From Propioniciclava soli (GTDB lineage Bacteria > Actinomycetota > Actinomycetes > Propionibacteriales > Propionibacteriaceae), in assembly GCF_014858005.1 (NCBI RefSeq), contig NZ_JACYOT010000006.1, positions 248,001-312,000 of the forward strand: a stretch of 64,000 bases of DNA, in the 5' to 3' direction. The number at the start of each line of letters is the position of its first letter. The first letter of the stretch is position 1. The translations under genes were made by a program, and so were the position numbers. The notes under the pieces were generated by a model. That model saw only the letters and a program-made list of their open reading frames with translations, was not told the DNA's origin and did not search any database. Shown here in pieces: positions 18,291 to 27,400 of this stretch.

Positions 18291-19130
18291 ATGATCGCAC
18301 CGGTGGTGGACGTGGCATGGCTGGCCGAGCACCCCGAGGCGGTGCTGGCTGACTTGCGGTGGCATCTGGACGGCCGCTCGGGCCTGGACGCCCACGCCCG
18401 CGGCCACATCCCCAACTCGGTGTTCGTGGACCTGCCGACCGTGTTGGCCGCAGAACCGACCCCGGACGGCGGGCGTCACCCGCTGCCGACGCCGGAGGTG
18501 TTCGCCGCGGGAATGCGCGCCGCGGGCATCTCCGACGACTCCGTGGTGGTGGCCTATGACGACGCGGGTGGGGCGTCCGCGGCTCGGCTCGTGTGGCTGC
18601 TGCGCTCGCGCGGGGTGGACGCGGCCCTGCTCGACGGGGGCATCGACGCCTGGCCCGGTGAGCTGGCCACCGGGGTGTGGACGCCACCGGCGCCGGGTGA
18701 GTTCACGGCCCGCCCCTGGGATCCGGCCGGCCTGGCCACCATCGACGACGCCGCCACGGCCCGGCACGTGGTGGACGCGCGGGCGTCCGAGCGCTACCGC
18801 GGCGAGACGGAGCCCATCGACCCCCGCGCGGGACACATCCCCGGCGCCATCAGCCTGCCCTTCGCCGGCAACCTGGACGCCGACGGCCGCTTCCTGCCCC
18901 CGGACGCCCTCGCCGAGCGTTTCCGCGCCGCCGGGTTGTCGCAGGACGCCGAGGTGATCGTCTACTGCGGCTCGGGCGTCACCGCGTGCCACAACCTGAT
19001 CGCCCTCGAGCGCGCCGGGTTCGGCCGCCTGCGCCTCTACCCGGGGTCGTGGTCGCAGTACGCCGCCACCGAGCGGCCCGCCGCCATCGGGGACGACCCC
19101 GGCACGCGCCCCGCCGTCCACGTCGTCTGA
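18291..19130 (+). CDS. Two-domain sulfurtransferase (thiosulfate / 3-mercaptopyruvate)
   Basis: This 279-residue protein has tandem rhodanese domains. The N-terminal domain (about 1-130, inactive) includes GHIPNSVFVDLP and VVAYDDAGGASAARLVWLL. The C-terminal domain (about 145-279) has ARASERYRG, RAGHIPGAISLPF and the catalytic loop VYCGSGVTACHN with the active cysteine near residue 226. The CGSGVT loop is closer to mercaptopyruvate-type enzymes (CGSGVTA) than to classical rhodaneses (CRKGVTA). It transfers sulfane sulfur to cyanide or thiols in the cytosol. Confidence 0.9.
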   Translation: MIAPVVDVAWLAEHPEAVLADLRWHLDGRSGLDAHARGHIPNSVFVDLPTVLAAEPTPDGGRHPLPTPEVFAAGMRAAGISDDSVVVAYDDAGGASAARLVWLLRSRGVDAALLDGGIDAWPGELATGVWTPPAPGEFTARPWDPAGLATIDDAATARHVVDARASERYRGETEPIDPRAGHIPGAISLPFAGNLDADGRFLPPDALAERFRAAGLSQDAEVIVYCGSGVTACHNLIALERAGFGRLRLYPGSWSQYAATERPAAIGDDPGTRPAVHVV

Positions 19131-19169
19131 TCGTTGTCCGCCCGGGACGGCGAACGCTCCGCGACGGGG

Positions 19170-19327
19170 GTCGGGCTGTCAGCCGCACAGCGAGCCGTCG
19201 AGCAGGTGGCGACGCAGGGGTCCTCACACGCACCGGCGGCAACCAGCGCAACCGCGTCTGGATCGCCCCGGACGCCATCGACGCCCTCGACGCCTTCGCC
19301 GAGCGCGTGGGACGGCGCGCGTACTGA
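19170..19327 (+). pseudogene. Remnant of a Fic family protein C-terminus
   Basis: Two adjoining frames read LSAAQRAVEQVATQG and then VLTRTGGNQRNRVWIAPDAI followed by a Leu/Asp-rich helix ending in GRRAY and a stop. This fits the C-terminal winged-helix tail of actinobacterial Fic proteins (a GNRRNRVW-type motif followed by ALDAFAERAGRR). A single frameshift joins the two parts, and the catalytic HPFxxGNGR core is absent. It lies just outside the island's left repeat, immediately after the sulfurtransferase gene. The rest of 19131-19462 shows nothing recognisable. Confidence 0.55.
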
Positions 19328-19462
19328 CGCATCGCCCCCACGACGGTCCGCCGTCGCGGGGAGGGCGACCGAGGCAACGGATCGATGCTCTGCTGGGCAG
19401 GACGCTTCTTCGCCCGTGGCGAGACCCTTCGCGTCAACGCACGAATCCAATCGGCCCATGTG

Positions 19463-19549
19463 AAAGGGCCCTGACGCTTCGAAGATGCAGGTCAGGGGCC
19501 CTTTCAGGTCAACGGCACCTGTCAGAGGTCGAAGTGAATCTCGAACTCC
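19463..19549. repeat. Left copy of the glnA1 3'-end repeat (attachment-site-like)
   Basis: This segment duplicates the glnA1 terminator hairpin and the last codons of glnA1 (minus-strand reading EFE-hydrophobic-x-FDL and stop). Positions 19485-19535 are identical over 51 bp to 25606-25656. The flanking parts match with a few changes, including a 1-nt deletion in the hairpin arm. A truncated copy of a gene end on the far side of a foreign segment is what site-specific integration into the 3' end of that gene leaves. Confidence 0.85.
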
Positions 19550-19660
19550 CCAGCCGGCGTTGGGTGGGGTTGGAGATCTCGGGCAAACACCGTTTGACCT
19601 GCGCAAACGTCGATCTGGCTTGTTGGCCCGTGACGGCTGATTTCGGCGTCGAACGGTTCT

Positions 19661-19685
19661 CTTGCGGTATCACTGCGGTATTTGG
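19661..19685. repeat. Left copy of a 23-bp internal island motif
   Basis: The motif is TGCGGTATCACTGCGGTAT plus TTGG, and 19 of 23 positions match 25541-25563 in the same orientation. Inside each copy, CGGTA recurs with a spacing of 11 bp. The paired location near each island end suggests arm-type recombinase or accessory-protein sites, which is an inference. Confidence 0.5.
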
Positions 19686-19691
19686 AGGGCG

Positions 19692-20477
19692 TCATGTGTC
19701 TCCGTTTGAAAGGGGCGCGGCATCCAACTCCGGGGTCGGGAGCGCATCCTCCTTGATGTCGGCGTACGCGTGCGGACCGACGGCGAGGTGGCAGAAGTAG
19801 TCGATCAGCTTGCGGAGGTTGCGACACCGGTCGCCGTAGGTCGCGATCTTGCTCATCGCGAAGTCGGCGCTGCTCAGCGGAACGCCCTTGGAGTTGATCT
19901 GGATGGCGATTTCGGAGACGGTCTCGGCCTCAAGGTCGATGATTCCGATCTACGCGTTCTGGACCCGGCCCAGGTGGACGAGGTTGGTCTCGAAAATCTT
20001 AGCGTCGACATCGGGGTTGCATTCGAGGTACTTGCGCGCGAAGGACAGGGGCGACTCGGAGTTGAAGTACTCGCTGATGTCGGCGATCCACTGTGGGTTC
20101 TTTCGGATCACCGGGGTCAGCGTCGCGAAATCCTCGGTAATAGGATTGAAGGGGATCGTGATCCGAGCGGACTTATACCGCTTGTTGATCACGTTGAGGC
20201 TGGCAACGGCCGCCCGGGGCGCGGTGATGCGCTGCTGGCCGTTGATCAGGATCTGCTGGTGAGCGGGCGACCTGGCCGCGCTTGAGTTTGGCGCCGACCG
20301 ACTGCCAGGTGATCAGGTAACCGACGGGGTAGCCCTTGTAGAGCGAGTCCTCAGGCCGCGGACCTTGACGCTGTCCCAGACGAAAGGACGCTGGAGCTCC
20401 GGGATCGCTATCGGGTCACTCTTCACGTCTGCCAACGACTGTGTGATATCGGACTGCGTCACCGAGTACTTCGCCAT
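19692..20477 (-). pseudogene. Broken DUF262 (GmrSD/SspE-like) restriction-type protein
   Basis: An ATG at 20477 opens MAKYSVTQSDITQSLADVKS and then AIPELQRPFVWDSVKVR, the N-terminus of DUF262 NTPase/nuclease proteins (GmrSD and SspE group, which cut modified or phage DNA). A 1-nt loss then shifts the frame into DSLYKGYPVGYLITWQ, and a second shift leads into LINGQQRITAP-like sequence and SARITIPFNPITEDFATLTP. A TAG at 19950-19952 replaces a probable Gln codon before [36 protein letters not shown] and IDYFCHLAV. The C-terminal half of the family (usually more than 550 residues) is missing. The gene is clearly inactive. Confidence 0.8.
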
Positions 20478-20660
20478 TGCTGCTCCTCGCTTGGTCGTGA
20501 GACACGCTAACGGCATCCTCCGACACGCACCGGGCAATCGAGCCCGGACATCCTCGGCCTACGACGTTGTGTGGCTGACTACGTCGACGGTCGTGCGCCG
20601 GGTGTCCTCGTCGCGACGGCCCAGGTCGTATTCGGCTGGGGCCGGTGCCTGGAGGGTGCG

Positions 20661-20935
20661 TCGACGACCGCCGCCCAATGCGTGCGCATCGACTCGGCCA
20701 CGTCCATCTCGGGCCACAGGTCGATGAGGAGCTGCGTCGAGGTAGAGGCGCAAGCTCCCCCCCGTCGCCGTAGGCCAGTAGCCGCTCGTAGACGAGCTTT
20801 CGGTCGGCGCCGAGCGAGCGGTCCCGCCAGAACTCGTCGTTGTCCTCGTCGATCAAGTCGAAGAACTTGATCCTGCGGAAGCATGCCGGCGCTTCGAGCC
20901 GCCACAGCCGATCGGGGACGGTGTGAACGGAAACC
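20661..20935 (-). pseudogene. Unidentified decayed coding remnant
   Basis: Protein-like pieces occur in three shifting frames: LWRLEAPACFRRIKFFDLID with DEDNDEFWRDRSLGADRKLV, then SLRLYLDA, then LLIDLWPEMDVAESMRTHWA. The pieces join if one allows two frameshifts, so this is probably the tail of a dead gene. I do not recognise the family. Confidence 0.35.
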
Positions 20936-20997
20936 GGAATCCCGGTGGCGCTGGGTGCTCGGTGAAGCTGACTCGGGCGACAGGAAGGAGCAGCGTG

Positions 20998-21778
20998 ATG
21001 AGCGTCGCGAAGTGCCTCGGCGTCGATGATCTCGCCCCGAACATGCAGGAAGTACGCGCCGAATGGCCTTGTTGGCAGGACGTTGAGCAGGCGCTGACCG
21101 TCGTCGACGACCTCGTGGTTCTGCCGCGCTGGATGAAGCACTCGGCGCCCATCGAGCGGGACGCTGTACTCGCAGGGCTTCGTCGTCTGGCCGAGCGAGA
21201 TCCGCGCGCCTATGTCGCACTCGCCTGGCTGGTTGTACCTGGCGCATCGCTGGTTGCCGGTCGACTGCGCAGGCTCGGCTAAGTGGTCGCCGGCCAGCTG
21301 TGGATCCAGATCTGCGACCACGATCATGGCCGACGACGCGTACGTCGCGACGACGATCCTGAGGCGTGTTGAGCGCGAGTCCATGGCTGAGCTCGGTTTC
21401 GGCGAGCTGGCCAAGCGTCGCGATCCCACGTGGGCGAGCTCGGTCCTCATCGAGCGGTACGACGAGACGATCCCGGCGGGGGACGCGGACGCCGAGGAGT
21501 TACGGGTGCAACTCACAGAGCTCCTGCGACGGGCTCTCGACTCAGGAGCGCTGTCCGACCAGGACCGCGGTTTGCTCCTGGATCTGGCTCTCGCGGCCAA
21601 CCTTGCGGATGCACCCCTTCGGCGTGGCAGGGCTGGGCTGACCACGCCGTCGGTCGCCCAGTTGGTCAGTGAGGATCACGTGCTCGCGGCCCGGACGATC
21701 CGCCGCCACGCCGCGAATGCGCTCTACAGGCTGGGGGAGGTCGCCCGTCAAGGCGGGCGCTCTGACGACTGGCCTTAA
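20998..21778 (+). pseudogene. Broken sigma-region-4-like actinobacterial protein
   Basis: A good ribosome binding site (GGAAGGAG) precedes the ATG at 20998. The first part reads DAVLAGLRRLAERDPRAYVA and LAWLVVPGASLVAG, then meets TAA (21280-21282) where a Glu codon is expected (RLG-stop-VVAGQLWIQI). A later +1 shift near 21320 restores the frame at MADDAYVATTILRRVERESM. The C-terminus (DQDRGLLLDLALAANL and LAARTIRRHAANALYRLG) resembles a sigma-70 region 4-type HTH. Proteins of this pattern occur in actinobacterial mobile elements. The second half (from ATG 21326) could still be translated as a 150-residue fragment. Confidence 0.6.
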
Positions 21779-22686
21779 GTCCAGGACAGCGTCTCATGCG
21801 ACCACGTCTTGCCATCGGCATCGCCGGAGAGTGCGGGGTCGATGAGGCGTTTCGCGAGATCGGCGGCGAGGTCCACGCTGCGGTAGTCGGTGCAGTGGGG
21901 GACGGGCCTGCTGAGTTTGGCGTAGCCGGCTCCCCACGCGGAGGGCACCGCGAAGCTGTCGAACCGCTTCATCTGGCGTCGGCGTGCCTCGATGACGATG
22001 GCGACTCGCAGCGCGCTGCCGTCGATGTCCTGCGTAGTCGCGATGACGACAAGGTCGACGAGGTCCTTCTCGCGGCTCGACGTACGTTCGTTGTACTCGG
22101 TCATGGTTGCGCAGACCTTGTCGGCGATCTGGTCGACGACGGGGTAGAGGCGGTACTCGTGGCTGACGAGGCGCGGCAGCTCCAGTGCGTTCGCCGGGTC
22201 GGTCGTGGTGACCTCTCCGGTGATCCCGCTGCCGACGGCGAGGTCAACCTGCAGCGAGCCCTTGGTGCTGAGGCCGATGAGGATCTCGAACCTGGCCTGG
22301 TAGCCTTCGGTGTAGGGCTGGGTGTCGTTGCCGATCGACTGGGTGTGGCTGACGTACTGGAACCGGAAGTGGTCACCGAGGTCGATCTCCGTCAGGCGGA
22401 TCAGGTCGTCGAGAGCTTCGGTGAGAGTTAAGCCGCGGCGGTACAGGTCGATGTCCCGAGTGGCGCGGGTCGAAGGCACTCGGGCGAGCATGCCCGTGCC
22501 GCCCTTCAGCACCCACTTGGAGTCGCCGGCCTCGGAGAACACGCGGCTCAGGAAGCGGTTGAAGTACTCCAGCTGGATCCGGTTGTTGACGTCGAGTGAC
22601 GGATCGGCAGCAGCTGCCCTCCTCGCTGCGTCCTTGATCGCGTTTTCGACGCCGCGCGGAGTGGAGTACGGCTCGGGCTCAGCCAC
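21775..22686 (-). CDS. abiEii: AbiEii/AbiGii-type nucleotidyltransferase toxin
   Basis: This toxin of about 303 residues belongs to a type IV toxin-antitoxin system. The nucleotidyltransferase core is visible as WVLKGGTGMLARVPSTRATR followed by DIDLYRRG (the GG-x-L...RxTxDID signature) near residues 55-80. LQVDLAVG and the helical segment PVVDQIADKVCATMTEYN with SSREKDLVDLVVIA complete the usual layout. Characterised relatives transfer nucleotides to tRNA or other targets, arresting growth and aborting phage infection. The GTG at 22686 overlaps the antitoxin stop by 8 nt. The reading frame is intact, unlike most of the island. Confidence 0.88.
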   Translation of the reverse strand: MAEPEPYSTPRGVENAIKDAARRAAAADPSLDVNNRIQLEYFNRFLSRVFSEAGDSKWVLKGGTGMLARVPSTRATRDIDLYRRGLTLTEALDDLIRLTEIDLGDHFRFQYVSHTQSIGNDTQPYTEGYQARFEILIGLSTKGSLQVDLAVGSGITGEVTTTDPANALELPRLVSHEYRLYPVVDQIADKVCATMTEYNERTSSREKDLVDLVVIATTQDIDGSALRVAIVIEARRRQMKRFDSFAVPSAWGAGYAKLSRPVPHCTDYRSVDLAADLAKRLIDPALSGDADGKTWSHETLSWT

Positions 22687-23734
22687 GCGTGACCGCCTTC
22701 TGGGTCTCACGAATGGCGGCAAGCGTCTCCGGCTTCAGCGCGATGCTGTCGCTCAGCGCAGTAACCCATCCCCGGCTGATCTTCTCCATGACGTCGCTGT
22801 CAACGAGCTGTGCTGAGATTCGGCGCGCGACCTCGTCGAGACCTGCGTTCGTGAGCAGGTCGGCGCTCACGCGCTCCATAGTTGCGTTGAAGCCGGCGAG
22901 CTGGGGAGCCATCGAACTCCGGATTGTTGCGGCAACCGACTCTTGGATCGAGCGCCTGGTCTGTTGCATCTCGGGTGTCATGACGAGCCGATCGAGGTCT
23001 TGCTTGCTGAGGCCGACGAGGTAGTTCGCAGCGACCCGAGAGCCGAGCGACGCGTCGGCGGCGACTCGACGCGCGACAGCCTCCGGGTCGATGCCTGCGA
23101 TCTCCATCAGCCGATCCAGCAGCGCGGCTCCATCACCCTTCTTGAGTCCGGTGCGCTGGGCGAGGTGAGCGAGGAGTGATCGGAGCCGCTCGAGGTCGAG
23201 CTCCCGCTTGCGAGTGGCGTCGCGGAGTGCGTCGGCGACGAGGCTGAGGTCGCCCACCTCTTCGACGAGATCGGCGATGGTGCGCTCCATCGTCATGACC
23301 GGCAGACCATCGACGAGCGTGACGTCGCAGGGGTCGAGGGTGCGCTGGCGGTAGCGAACGGCGCTGCGCTGACTCTGGCGGCGGCCGGGGGAGACGAACT
23401 CGTGCCGCAGGGCGCGGAAGTCGCCGATGCCGTGCAGGTCGGCGGCGGACTCTCCTGCCACAACGACACCGTTGGCGGGGTCCTTGATGCGCGCCTCGCC
23501 CATCGCCTTCGGATCGGTGCTGAGCCAGGCTGCCTTCAGGTCGTCGTGCGGGCCGGCGGGAGCGCCGGCGTCCTTGTAGACCCCGTGAGCGAGACGTTCT
23601 AGCTGGCCGTCCGCGGCGAGTCGGGAGAGGTCGAGGCGTGTGATGCCGTGCAGGCTGGCTTGAGCCGACGTCACCATGCCCCACTGGTAGGCGGTGACCT
23701 CAGCGAGCACGTGGAGGGCATCCTTTGACTTCAT
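22679..23734 (-). CDS. abiEi: AbiEi-type antitoxin / autorepressor
   Basis: This 351-residue protein begins MKSKDALHVLAEVTAYQWGM and continues as an N-terminal winged-helix (VTSAQASLHGITRLDLSRLA with ADGQLERLAHGVYKDAGAP), the AbiEi_4 antitoxin pattern. A middle domain (VVVAGESAADLHGIGDF, TLVDGLPVMTMERTIADLV) follows, then a long helical C-terminus. AbiEi proteins counteract the AbiEii toxin and repress their own promoter by binding inverted repeats. The ATG at 23734 directly follows such an inverted repeat. The antitoxin-first, overlapping order is standard for AbiE. Confidence 0.87.
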   Translation of the reverse strand: MKSKDALHVLAEVTAYQWGMVTSAQASLHGITRLDLSRLAADGQLERLAHGVYKDAGAPAGPHDDLKAAWLSTDPKAMGEARIKDPANGVVVAGESAADLHGIGDFRALRHEFVSPGRRQSQRSAVRYRQRTLDPCDVTLVDGLPVMTMERTIADLVEEVGDLSLVADALRDATRKRELDLERLRSLLAHLAQRTGLKKGDGAALLDRLMEIAGIDPEAVARRVAADASLGSRVAANYLVGLSKQDLDRLVMTPEMQQTRRSIQESVAATIRSSMAPQLAGFNATMERVSADLLTNAGLDEVARRISAQLVDSDVMEKISRGWVTALSDSIALKPETLAAIRETQKAVTRG

Positions 23735-23771
23735 GCTTGGAGTGTATCGCCTCAGTGGATACATTCCAAGC
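23735..23771 (-). promoter_or_regulatory. abiE promoter embedded in an inverted-repeat operator
   Basis: Two 14-bp arms (23735-23748 and 23758-23771, 13 of 14 complementary) flank a 9-nt spacer directly upstream of the abiEi ATG. On the minus strand, TTGGAA, 17 nt, TACACT, 6 nt and ATG give a complete leaderless promoter with the -35 in one arm and the -10 in the other. Binding of AbiEi to both arms would occlude both polymerase contacts. Confidence 0.75.
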
Positions 23772-23784
23772 GCACAGTTGGCCA

Positions 23785-24706
23785 TCAAGGCCCCAGGGCA
23801 GGGCCGCTGCTCGAAGGCGTCGTGCGACGCAAGTCATCGAACGGAGCCGCGCGCAGGGTTCGCCGTGCGACGAGGTCCTTCACCCGATAGGCGAGCGCGG
23901 CAGTTGGGTGGTCCACCGGCAGCGGTTCACGGGCGAAGGCGAGCTCGAGCATCCGCTCGGCGTCGACCCCCTTACGGTGGAGGCCGTCGAGGTACTTCGC
24001 CAACTGACCGGCCTGCTCGTCGCGATGCCCGACGTGCGCGACGATCCGCTCCTGCCAGACGTCGAGGGCTTCGCCCTACCGGGCGTTGATCCGGTTGGTG
24101 AGGTTCCGGTGGTACGCCGCCTCGTCATTGTCGTGGGGTAAAGGTCCGGCGAGGCTGCGCTCGTCGGCGGGCACGCCGGTGCCAGCGCGCCAGACGGCGA
24201 GCTCTCGCCGTAGCTCGGCCGTGAGGACGTCGTCGTATCGCGTCGTCTAGGCCGGCAACCTCTCGCGTCGGGCGACTTCGCTAGCCAGCGCGCTGGCTCG
24301 GCGCGAGCGCTCGGACAGGTACGGCCCCCAGCTCGGATGGTCGGCCACAACCTCGGGGATGCCCGGCAGTCAGGGGAGGGTCTGGGTCCCGCGTACTCAG
24401 GGGCAGCACGCAGCATGGATGCGGCGAGGGTGACCGCGTCGGCGTACCGCGTGACCGCGTCGTGCAGCTGGGCCTCCGGCGAAGCGCCCGTAGTTTGCGT
24501 CGTGGCGGCGGAGACGGCCGCACCGTCGCGGGCGAGGATCCCTTCGAGCACCTCGGTTGCGGTCAGCGCACATTTGTCAGTCGAGCTGGGCAAGGCGTGT
24601 GTGTCATCGAAGCCGCGGACGAGGTGGGCGTGGTTCTCGACGCGACCCGGGTGAGCATCGTGTAGAGCAGCTGCCGGTCCTCCGCGCTCGTGCGATCCAC
24701 TCGATG
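23785..24706 (-). pseudogene. Remnant of a MobF-type conjugative relaxase C-terminal region
   Basis: Reading leftward on the minus strand, the pieces are AEDRQLLYTMLTR, ENHAHLVRGFDDTHAL, ATEVLEGILARDGAAVSA, PEVVADHPSWGPYLSERSRR, VLTAELRRELAVWRAGTGVP, EALDVWQERIVAHVGHRDEQ and VDAERMLELAFAREPLPVDH with PTAALAYRVKDL. Their order matches the helicase-tail and C-terminal region of large actinobacterial TrwC/TraA-like relaxases. At least two frameshifts and TAG codons at 24247-24249 and 24076-24078 kill the gene. The N-terminal relaxase domain is missing: sequence stops where the neighbouring gene at 24708 ends. This is the clearest sign that the island was once conjugative or mobilisable. Confidence 0.75.
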
Positions 24707-24707
24707 A

Positions 24708-25444
24708 CTAAGCGTCGTAGTCCTGGATGGCGAGGGCTTCAGCCCACGAGGTCTCAACCAACGTGCCATCAGGACGGCCGATGGGGTCCTGCCCGTCGTC
24801 CGCGGTCGATTCTGCAAGCGCGGAGCCGAGTAAGTCGGCGGTGATCGGCTCACTCCCTACCACCAGCTCGTAAATCGAGATCCGAAGCCCGACCCGAAGG
24901 CCAAGGCCTGGAAAGCGCGATACGACGTAACCAGGAGGATCGACGACCGCCTCTCCGGTGCTTGCCGCCAGGACGAACGGCTCGTAGTAGGCGCGCCAGA
25001 AAAGGTCGAGGTCAACGGCGATGTCCACGGCCACCTCCTCCTGTGGGGGATCAACGACGTCGACGTGGAGCCGATCCCAGACGCCGGAGTAGGGGACTGG
25101 GAAGGATGAGACGCAACCGAGGGCGACAGCAGGCTTCTGACCATTGATGCTCTTGATCATCGACTTCTGGGCTGCCAGCTGTGAGGGCAAGCCACTCTCC
25201 ATGCCGTTCGAGCGACCCTTCGCCTCGGCAACGATCCAGTCTCCCGGCAACGTCATGCCGAACAGATCGGGGCGCTTCCGTCCGAGGCCAAAGAACACCC
25301 GGTGCCGAGTCGCGTATCGGTCCACATGCATGAGGAACGCGACGCCAAGCTGTTGCCGGCAGCGGGGAAGCCCTGGGCCGTGAACGGCGCTTCGAGGAGG
25401 GTGGGCATCGGCAAACTCCAGGTCCGGAAGAACATGAGGTCCAC
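24708..25444 (-). pseudogene. Probable PD-(D/E)XK-like protein with EAK motif, N-terminal frameshift
   Basis: The main frame contains HRVFFGLGRKRPDLFG and then DWIVAEAKGRSNGMESGLPS with QLAAQKSMIKSINGQKP. The D-(strand)-EAK arrangement resembles the catalytic core of PD-(D/E)XK nucleases, though I cannot name a family. The best N-terminus (GTG 25444: DLMFFRTWSLPMPTLLEAPF, TAQGFPAAGNSLA) lies in another frame and joins the core by a 1-nt shift at about 25353-25365. The gene is therefore either recently inactivated or carries a sequence error. A start inside the intact frame would give up to 246 residues. C-terminal half: VDLDLFWRAYYEPFVLA and a Glu/Asp-rich tail. Confidence 0.5.
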
Positions 25445-25540
25445 GCAAGTCTACCGTTTCGACCGGGCGGCCACCGAGAGATGGGGTGGCAAGCTCAAAC
25501 CGTCCTGACGACCCGTCGAGAACCGCTCAGCGGAATCTCC

Positions 25541-25563
25541 TACGGTACTTCTGCGGTATTTGG
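25541..25563. repeat. Right copy of the 23-bp internal island motif
   Basis: It matches 19 of 23 positions of the copy near the left island end, in the same orientation, and lies about 20 bp inside the right repeat. Confidence 0.5.
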
Positions 25564-25581
25564 CCCCCACGAGCCCAAGCG

Positions 25582-25669
25582 AAAAGGGCCCCTGACGCTG
25601 CGAAAATGCAGGTCAGGGGCCCTTTCAGGTCAACGGCACCTGTCAGAGGTCGAAGTACATCTCGAACTC
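25582..25669. repeat. Right copy of the glnA1 3'-end repeat (attachment-site-like)
   Basis: This is the native end of glnA1 with its terminator. The 51-bp block 25606-25656 is identical to 19485-19535 at the other island end. Because glnA1 is intact on this side, integration here preserved the gene's C-terminus, as integrases that target gene 3' ends usually do. Confidence 0.85.
25583..25625 (-). terminator. glnA1 intrinsic terminator
   Basis: A perfect 14-bp stem (25583-25596 with 25612-25625) has an inner 4-bp CTGC/GCAG extension and an AT-rich loop. On the minus strand the stem ends in TTTT. It starts 18 nt after the glnA1 stop codon. Confidence 0.85.
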
Positions 25670-27073
25670 GTGCGGGTGCGGACGCTGACGGAGGGCGTTG
25701 ATGTCCTCCTTCTTCAGGTCGATCCACGTCTCGATCAGGTCGGAGGTGAACACGTCACCGGCGAGGAGGAAGTCGTGGTCGGCCTCGAGCGCCTTGAGAG
25801 CCTCCTCCAGCGAGCCGGGAACGGTCGCGATCTCGGCGTGCTCCTCGGGGGGCAGCTCGTACAGGTCCTTGTCGACCGGCGCCGGCGGCTCGGTCTTGTT
25901 GGCGATGCCGTCGAGCCCGGCCAGCAGCATCGCGGAGAACGCGAGGTACGGGTTGGCCGACGGGTCGGGGCAGCGGAACTCCATCCGCTTCGCCTTGGGC
26001 GAGGGGCCGGTGATCGGGATGCGGATGCACGCCGAACGGTTGCGCTGGCTGTAGACCAGGTTGACCGGCGCCTCGAAGCCCGGGATCAGGCGGTGGTAGG
26101 AGTTCGCCGTGGGGTTGGTGAACGCGAGCAGCGCCGGAGCGTGGGCCAGGATGCCACCGATGTACCAGCGCGCCAGGTCGGACAGGCCCGCATAGCCGGC
26201 CTCGTCCGCGAACAGCGGCTTGCCGTCCGCCCAGATGGACTGGTGCACGTGCATGCCCGAACCGTTGTCGCCGAAGATGGGCTTCGGCATGAACGTGGCG
26301 GTCTTGCCCGCCTCCCACGCCGTGTTCTTGATGATGTACTTGTACTTCATCAGGTTGTCCGCGGCCGTCAGCAGCTCGGCGAACTTGACGGCGATCTCAC
26401 CCTGGCCGGCCGTGCCGACCTCGTGGTGGGCCCGCTCGATCTCCAGACCGGCGTTGATGAGGTGGCGCACCATGTCGTCACGCAGGTCACCGAAGTGGTC
26501 CACGGGCGCGGCCGGGAAGTAGCCACCCTTGTACTTCACCTTGTAACCGCGGTTGACGCGGCCGTCCACGTCGTTCTCCGAGCCGGTCGCCCACGCGCCC
26601 GCCTCGGACTCGATGAAGTAGTAGCCGGCGTTCTGCTTGGTCTCGAAGCGCACCGAGTCGAACACGTAGAACTCGGCCTCGGGGCCCATGAAGGCGGTAT
26701 CGCCGATGCCCGTGCTCTTCAGGTACTCCTGCGCCTTGCGCGCGATGTTGCGCGGGTCGCGGCTGTACGGCTCCTTGGTGATCGGGTCGTGCACGAACCA
26801 GTTGAGCACCAGCGTCTTGCTCTTGCGGAAGGGATCCAGGTACGCCGTCGTCGGGTCGGGCAGCAGGGCCATGTCCGACTCGTGGATCTTCTGGAAGCCG
26901 CGGATCGAGCTGCCGTCGAAGCTCAGACCGTCCTCGAAGACGTCGGGAGTCAGGAACGACGCGGGGATCGTGAAGTGCTGCATCACACCGGGGAGATCGC
27001 AGAAGCGGACGTCGATCGTCTCGATCTCGTTCTCGGCCACGTACGCCAGCAGTTCGTCGGCGCCTTGGAACAT
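25643..27073 (-). CDS. glnA1: Glutamine synthetase GlnA1 (type I-beta, adenylylatable)
   Basis: This 476-residue dodecameric enzyme is the main ammonia-assimilating glutamine synthetase. Motifs in order: [14 protein letters not shown] near residue 24, [10 protein letters not shown] near 50, [10 protein letters not shown] near 130, [20 protein letters not shown] near 210, [12 protein letters not shown] near 265, [12 protein letters not shown] near 350 and the adenylylation loop [10 protein letters not shown] near 400, whose Tyr is the GlnE target. The upstream in-frame ATG is rejected because GGAGGAAAG sits just before the ATG at 27073 and the [12 protein letters not shown] start matches the family. 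GlnR-like half-sites lie upstream, and its 3' end is the island insertion site. Confidence 0.97.
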
Positions 27074-27107
27074 CTTTCCTCCGAAACGGTAGGGATTGGA
27101 CCCTGAG

Positions 27108-27161
27108 ACAGTAACCGTCCCGGCGCGGCCGTTCTTTACGTCCATGTTTCAGCAGTGTTAC
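27108..27161 (-). promoter_or_regulatory. glnA1 promoter with three GlnR-like half-sites
   Basis: On the minus strand, GTAAC (27157-27161), 6 nt, GAAAC (27146-27150), 6 nt and GTAAA (27135-27139) match the GlnR pattern gTnAC-n6-GaAAc with an additional half-site, all at an 11-bp pitch. A TACTGT -10 at 27108-27113 would start transcription near 27101, placing the box around -35 to -60. The leader carries the GGAGG ribosome binding site. Confidence 0.65.
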
Positions 27162-27164
27162 GCC

Positions 27165-27315
27165 ACCCTGGGGGCTCCGCCCCCAGCCCCCCACCCCCTG
27201 CCGCCACCCTGGGGGCTCCGCCCCCAGCCCCCCGCTCCGGAGGCTTCGCTCCCAGCCCCCCGCTCCGGAGGCTTCGCTCCCAGCCCCCCACCCTGGGGGC
27301 TCCGCCCCCTGCCGG
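27165..27315. repeat. C-rich hairpin repeats between glnA1 and the RDD gene
   Basis: Three copies of CTGGGGGCTCCGCCCCCAG-type hairpins (near 27168, 27209 and 27293, the last truncated at its 3' arm) are mixed with two tandem 27-bp copies beginning CGCTCCGGAGGCTTCGCTCC (27234-27260 and 27261-27287). Each unit can fold into a stem of about 8 bp with a 3-nt loop. The block lies upstream of both divergent genes, so it is not a conventional terminator. Confidence 0.75.
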
Positions 27316-27348
27316 ACCCGGGCGGGATGGTGGCCGGAGCATGGCTGA

Positions 27349-27400
27349 GCATTTGGACCCGAGCAAATGGCGCCATGGCGCCACAACCTCGGGTCCAAAC
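27349..27400. repeat. Imperfect palindrome, copy 1 of a dispersed element
   Basis: Arms built on TTGGACCCGAG and its complement flank a self-complementary centre GGCGCCATGGCGCC. The same element, better conserved, lies at 46411-46464. The inner arm segments here have diverged (AGCAAATGG opposite CACAACC). Confidence 0.7.

Follow-up and report, generated by a model that had tools for sequence, protein, structure and literature searches.

Why does the 3' end of a glutamine synthetase gene occur twice on one contig of Propioniciclava soli (Propionibacteriaceae), with the body of the gene on one side only? The window, by which we mean the whole stretch of 64,000 nt analysed here (assembly GCF_014858005.1, contig NZ_JACYOT010000006.1), contains at the 3' end of glnA1 a 6.1-kb stretch, hereafter the island, which is flanked by 86-bp repeats. 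Integrases are known to target the ends of protein-coding genes, among them guaA, icd and prfC. Our analyses make it very likely that the island is what remains of an integrative element which a tyrosine integrase inserted at the 3' end of glnA1, the gene being kept whole.

Under the proposed mechanism, a tyrosine integrase would have recombined the attachment site of the element (attP) with the last codons of glnA1. The attP would have supplied a terminator-like hairpin as well as the stop codon and the last codons of glnA1, so that the gene stayed intact, and the original glnA1 tail would have been displaced to the far end, beside a rhodanese gene. Afterwards, the element would have lost its integrase and most of its mobility functions, leaving an AbiE pair, decayed relaxase pieces and perhaps a GmrSD-type piece. 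This reading builds on the observed repeats and gene content of the island, and integration with preservation of the gene, as first proposed from the window alone (hereafter the original prediction), is supported because relatives carry a single tail, complete elements with tyrosine integrases stand at the same site, and core and arm sites share their geometry.

Repeats and arm sites at the island ends

The direct repeat occupies positions 19463-19548 and 25584-25669 (86 nt, 93% identity, spacing 6121), and its longest exact run, 51 nt at 19485-19535 and 25606-25656, is the identical stretch already recognized in the original prediction. It comprises the last codons of glnA1, the stop codon and the downstream hairpin; as had also been claimed, the intact gene lies on one side, and the far copy has no more of it than the last codons. 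When a 62-nt sequence across the glnA-side junction was searched against the 3.8-Mb genome, two matches were obtained (E <= 0.001), both at the island, and the repeat therefore belongs to no dispersed family in the P. soli genome, which disposes of the dispersed terminators that had been raised as an alternative. The features that define the site are as follows.

25643..27145, minus strand: glnA1, type I glutamine synthetase, the intact target (open reading frame, ORF, of 500 aa; Gln-synt_N and Gln-synt_C, Gln-synt_C with E 5.8e-137)
25643..25668, minus strand: glnA-side core, formed by AG, the last seven glnA1 codons and the stop codon (from the position of the shared run in other elements and from the sequence)
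19522..19547, minus strand: distal core copy, with two mismatches to the glnA-side copy (from the repeat comparison)
25582..25626, minus strand: terminator-like hairpin directly 3' of glnA1 (-37.1 kcal/mol, z -7.96)
19461..19506, minus strand: second hairpin copy, on the distal side (-26.6 kcal/mol, z -4.31)
25536..25563, no strand assigned: putative glnA-side arm pair (P' side), at +108 from the core start in glnA sense
19658..19685, no strand assigned: putative distal arm pair (P side); read in glnA sense, its two sites lie at -135 and -124 relative to the core start

The core, consisting of the last glnA codons and the stop, is present in the window as 26 nt with two mismatches between the copies, and the glnA1 orthologue in genome G005 is 87% identical. 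The G+C content is 0.61-0.69 inside the island and about 0.75 in the left flank; since the glnA side itself has about 0.66, composition marks the left border only.

A shorter second repeat lies inside both island ends (19658-19685 and 25536-25563), and its copies read as arm-type integrase sites. The pattern written from this repeat, a motif defined after the window sequence had been seen, matched twice in the window and not once in any of 100 shuffles. In glnA sense, the distal arms are TACCGC-N5-TACCGC starting at -135 (sites at -135 and -124) with a weaker third site next to them, and those on the glnA side are TACCGC-N5-TACCGT starting at +108. Position and 11-bp period agree with the layout of the complete elements described below, whereas the letters differ (TACCGC versus GTCCGC). 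The closest layout is that of Janibacter L244, in which a hairpin stands between the stop codon and the arms and the pair lies at +106.

Vacant and occupied glnA ends in other genomes

A search for the glnA tail (<=3 mismatches) in 198 genomes of the family returned a match in 174. P. soli has two tails, and of 12 relatives from the same genus nine have one, while none was found in the other three. The convergent rhodanese neighbour downstream of glnA1 is kept, without the P. soli island, in all nine same-genus loci that were fetched, the distance from the glnA stop to the rhodanese end being about 60-90 bp in G009 and G011 and 0.4-4.9 kb in the remaining loci. Such single-tail loci are unoccupied contexts and not exact empty attachment sites (attB): the comparison of related glnA1 3' regions suggested in the original prediction thus yielded single tails with the same neighbour and no island, but not an exact attB. 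Other family genomes with a second tail-like match, among the matches listed, were G163, G021 and G159 and, less clearly, G146, G164 and G094. At locus L046 of G016, a hairpin much like that of the window stands behind glnA and is followed by ORFs that by eye resemble a type I restriction system; a second copy of the hairpin was not seen in the 20 kb fetched.

Complete elements, in which the original prediction advised looking for an integrase, do have a tyrosine integrase at the same site in G163, in viral contigs and in named genomes. In G163 two tails lie 36 kb apart, and the integrase gene (PF00589) is found just 3' of the glnA stop, convergent with glnA. An exact scan of viral contigs for the glnA tail identified five contigs (L067-L071). 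Both tails are present in L067, 13.7 kb apart; in L068 the glnA end adjoins an integrase; in L069 and L070 an integrase adjoins a tail from which the rest of glnA is missing, the arrangement expected of attP; and L071 has a tail, with no integrase-like ORF flagged across its 4.8 kb. The integrase-like match of L067 (260-1399) stands at the distal end and perhaps represents a second integrase lineage at the glnA site.

At E <= 1e-40 the G163 integrase matched 7 of 197 family genomes, namely its own and six more with 35-39% identity. An alignment of four glnA-site integrases (A1) was used instead to scan named genomes, and the best 80 of 429 confirmed loci were kept. The integrase match lies <=400 bp from the end of a facing (convergent) glnA in 47 of the 80 loci, a count which, like that of the tail pairs, is not an unbiased share, the A1 members having been chosen for lying at glnA. 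The hosts of these 47 include Streptomyces, Micromonospora, Cellulomonas, Arthrobacter, Microbacterium, Demequina, Geodermatophilus, Kocuria and Janibacter. Tail pairs on the same contig and strand (<=2 mismatches), 8-38 kb apart, occur in 21 of the 26 genomes listed (50 searched); in G214, G238, G246, G235 and G244 the second tail is absent, on another contig or 102 kb off. Altogether, glnA-site elements in named genomes span 5-38 kb. In viral contigs the A1 scan found 52 loci, seven of them with a glnA tail, and five of these seven lack the rest of glnA (two being L069 and L070). Against isolated phages, the L069 integrase matched 884 records, five at 60-80% identity and 879 below 60%; the 40 of these 884 that were listed have 27.8-32.0% identity.

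The integrase tree, built by a quick method and containing several long branches, has 84 rows (81 different), in which the 51 glnA-adjacent rows need 11 label changes compared with 26.3 in shuffles; its starred branches force at least seven label changes among the glnA-adjacent integrases. These integrases are clustered, but a single clade is not demonstrated. More distant integrases without a flanking glnA (L120, L133, L137, L140, L144, L148-L152) seem, by eye, to lie behind other coding sequences, as if the target had changed. Repeated use of the glnA 3' end as a landing site by phages and phage-like elements is well supported in many actinobacteria, and the unusual attachment site of the original prediction turns out to be no odd one-off in Actinomycetota.

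The anatomy of these elements follows a common plan. Among nine elements with both ends, an exact run of 19-31 bp is shared between the ends in eight and is broken in L245; in eight of the nine it starts 2-3 bases before TTCGAG or its equivalent and ends -7 to +5 bases from the end of the stop codon. Unlike the shared run of the eight other elements, the repeat identity of the window extends well beyond the stop. Within 150 nt after the stop, a tandem GTCCGC-N5-GTCCGC (<=1 change) was found in 40 of 46 distinct integrase loci, and a terminator-like hairpin in 23 of 46, compared with 1.1 expected in base shuffles, in which the coding structure of the integrase end is lost. Of 11 elements with both ends, 10 have a distal arm pair (<=2 changes) that begins at -124 or -123 relative to the core start; shuffling gives an expectation of 0.32 in all for a pair anywhere in the 260-nt flank. 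The glnA-side pair stands at +51, +62, +73 or +106 in 10 of 11, positions that are mostly separated from one another by multiples of 11. L125 (Geodermatophilus) has neither pair. The motif CTGACCTGC behind the stop, first thought general, was set aside, being present in only 14 of the 46 distinct loci.

Cargo was surveyed in nine glnA-site elements, with 78 ORFs retained by a rule on length and third-position GC content (GC3) and 60 of them searched. The families found among the 60 were Phage_integrase (7), AAA_25 (3), Phage_capsid (2), WhiB (2), portal (1) and minor tail (1); in PHROG, tape-measure families lead after integrase among the matches listed (25 of 79 families), and one ORF matches the candidate defence family PDC-M32A. 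Judged by these genes, the nine elements, which span 8-16 kb, appear to be satellites or small prophages. Genes for capsid, portal, tape-measure or AAA_25 proteins occur in some of L239-L247 and L082 (5.7-16 kb), which resemble actinobacterial phage satellites.

Cargo, decay and alternative origins of the island

Inside the island and beyond its distal end, the following features were annotated.

22679..23788, minus strand: AbiEi, antitoxin of the AbiE type IV toxin-antitoxin pair (PF13338, E 2.4e-10; PADLOC AbiEi, E 2.7e-91)
21775..22722, minus strand: AbiEii, nucleotidyltransferase toxin (PF08843, E 2.5e-21; PADLOC AbiEii, E 1e-116)
23881..24647, minus strand: decayed C-terminal part of a TrwC/MobF-type relaxase (broken frames; matches the 1309-aa relaxase of L237)
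19953..20558, minus strand: possible decayed GmrSD/DUF262-type gene, weak (two frames; PF03235, E 0.0091 and 0.079, below the curated cut-off)
24708..25448, minus strand: ORF without Pfam (E <= 0.001) or PADLOC match (longer frame with one insignificant Pfam match, E 0.076)
21137..21775, plus strand: open frame without Pfam or PADLOC match (right part within the DNA common to G082)
18291..19130, plus strand: rhodanese-like gene of the host, located past the distal end and convergent with glnA1 (PF00581, E 1.4e-26)

AbiEi and AbiEii are adjacent on one strand and look intact, in the side-by-side arrangement of an AbiE system, and the pair is predicted to be functional. Positions 21512-23829 of the window have 92% DNA identity to 8932-11254 of L237 in G082, a genome from another genus of the Propionibacteriaceae, whose AbiE cassette is on a different contig from its glnA tail and adjoins the gene for a 1309-aa relaxase with a TrwC domain. 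Two collinear pieces of this relaxase match 24647-23881 of the window (E 8.6e-10 and 1.2e-15, composition correction off; next-best window match E 0.02). An intact relaxase, as in a mobilizable or conjugative element, is not found in the island, which has only C-terminal pieces in broken frames. Within the possible GmrSD-type gene, PADLOC HEC-05 matches 20316-20558 (E 6e-5). This gene content suggests a decayed mobilizable or conjugative element in which the defence pair was retained, and which would once have had an integrase and a whole relaxase.

When the window was compared with the four glnA-site integrases, the best match had E 0.33, in line with the earlier statement that the interval holds no intact integrase, and we call the island a remnant because a recombinase is absent from the window. 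The P. soli genome has seven matches to A1 elsewhere (best E 1.3e-22), compared with the E <= 1e-40 reached by the G163 protein in 7 of 197 family genomes. Since no integrase of the A1 clade occurs in the window, we infer from the site alone that the lost integrase belonged to the glnA-site kind. A candidate integrase remnant at 25452-25508, a plus-frame peptide resembling an integrase tail, was dropped, as it lies on the strand opposite the 24708-25448 ORF and gave no integrase match. Directly upstream of glnA1, GC-rich repeats of about 28 nt (27160-27340; family D1, five copies) are present, with an inverted repeat (27352-27399) next to them.

Several observations weigh against one insertion by an integrase of this kind. 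Nearly the same hairpin stands on both flanks, which is not accounted for by a single integration with an unrelated attP; a near-identical empty site was not found in the relatives, which have the same gene order and other terminators; and neither an integrase nor a recognisable piece of one is left in the island. In exact-pattern searches, the TACCGC arm sequence of the window was absent from the viral contigs scanned and was found in 1 of 197 genomes of the family and 1 of 391 of the order, P. soli itself in both cases. Among the 80 integrase loci, glnA lies 0.5-6 kb away in eight, and for 25 the flank contains no glnA, in some cases owing to a nearby contig end. As for the twin hairpins, either attP resembled the host terminator, as seems so in L125, or an older element stood there. 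Two successive integrations, in which the distal hairpin and the rest of 19134-19463 would belong to an older element and the island would be the inner member of a former tandem pair, form a tentative possibility that refines the preferred explanation and is compatible with it. The distal flank indeed repeats the hairpin found on the attP side at glnA, the rhodanese gene is only about 60-90 bp from the glnA stop in G009 and G011 as opposed to the extra DNA at 19134-19463, and a Fic-type gene fragment that may be left from an older insertion lies between the distal repeat and the rhodanese gene (19208-19324; E 1.7e-12 to a Fic-domain protein of 356 aa in G027). However, the extra DNA is unremarkable beside the 0.4-4.9 kb of the other same-genus loci, reading of the sequence by eye gave no arm pair beyond the distal core, and L125 has similar hairpins on both flanks with no trace of a second element, so that a host terminator can resemble that of attP.

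A tyrosine integrase of a different lineage that also uses the glnA end could have made the insertion, which we consider quite unlikely: the arm sequence of the window is a variant, and L067, with glnA tails and a distal integrase-like match, suggests that more than one lineage may use the site, but the 11-bp arm period, the distal site at -124 and the glnA-side pair at +108 (+106 in L244) fit the layout of the elements that carry A1-type integrases. An origin without any integrase, with the DNA caught either through a segmental duplication that copied the glnA tail or through homologous recombination of two similar terminators, is most improbable. Although hairpins with a CTGACCTGC arm are found elsewhere (L026 has one near glnA and not behind it), the repeat covers codons and stop as well as the hairpin, just two copies exist in the genome, arm pairs lie inside both ends, and many integrase-bearing elements stand at the same glnA codons elsewhere.

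Comparison with known systems and significance

Tyrosine-integrase islands and prophages whose insertion restores the end of a protein-coding gene are treated as a general kind in passages of PMC12884075. A glnA attachment site is not reported in the passages considered from that paper or from PMC12424338, PMC10654092, PMC10023795 and PMC11755657, and none was found in the open-access literature, covered mostly at the level of abstracts, which makes this a weak negative. Our results add the end of a conserved central metabolic gene of Actinomycetota to the known attachment sites. The simple signature of a glnA tail, arm pairs and a convergent integrase can serve to find satellites, prophages and defence islands, even where the integrase is missing, and the glnA-site integrases might, since the site is conserved, be used to place DNA at a single predictable position across many actinobacteria.

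A broader reading holds that the glnA1 end is a phylum-wide dedicated landing site of related tyrosine integrases, and that the stop, spacer and terminator of the elements take over the 3' end of the glnA mRNA and may tune it, tying their maintenance to nitrogen metabolism. As a whole we regard it as unlikely; its dedicated-site half is well supported, and control of glnA expression is put forward purely as something the elements may exert. In Enterobacteriaceae, the 3' untranslated region of the glnA mRNA yields a regulatory RNA, according to PMC9731577, and the 3' end of this mRNA can therefore matter. Whether glnA expression changes when an element brings its own hairpin is a question that can be put to the test.

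The island shares with other gene-end islands a repeat derived from the end of the gene, a gene kept whole, a far tail and, in its complete relatives, an integrase beside the site; it differs from the known ones in its target, glnA, and in having no integrase. Similarly, the 36-kb element of G163, L239-L247, L082 and L067-L070 have the same core codons and arms of 11-bp period inside both ends, and a hairpin behind the glnA stop is common to the island and many complete glnA-site elements. The complete elements, in contrast, have an integrase and GTCCGC arms (GGCCGC in L244), whereas the P. soli island has TACCGC arms and none; the nine small elements carry partly phage-type cargo, the island a defence pair. 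This pair resembles AbiE systems in its adjacent AbiEi and AbiEii genes on one strand, with nothing unusual noticed. We regard the island as a decayed representative of a known kind of element.

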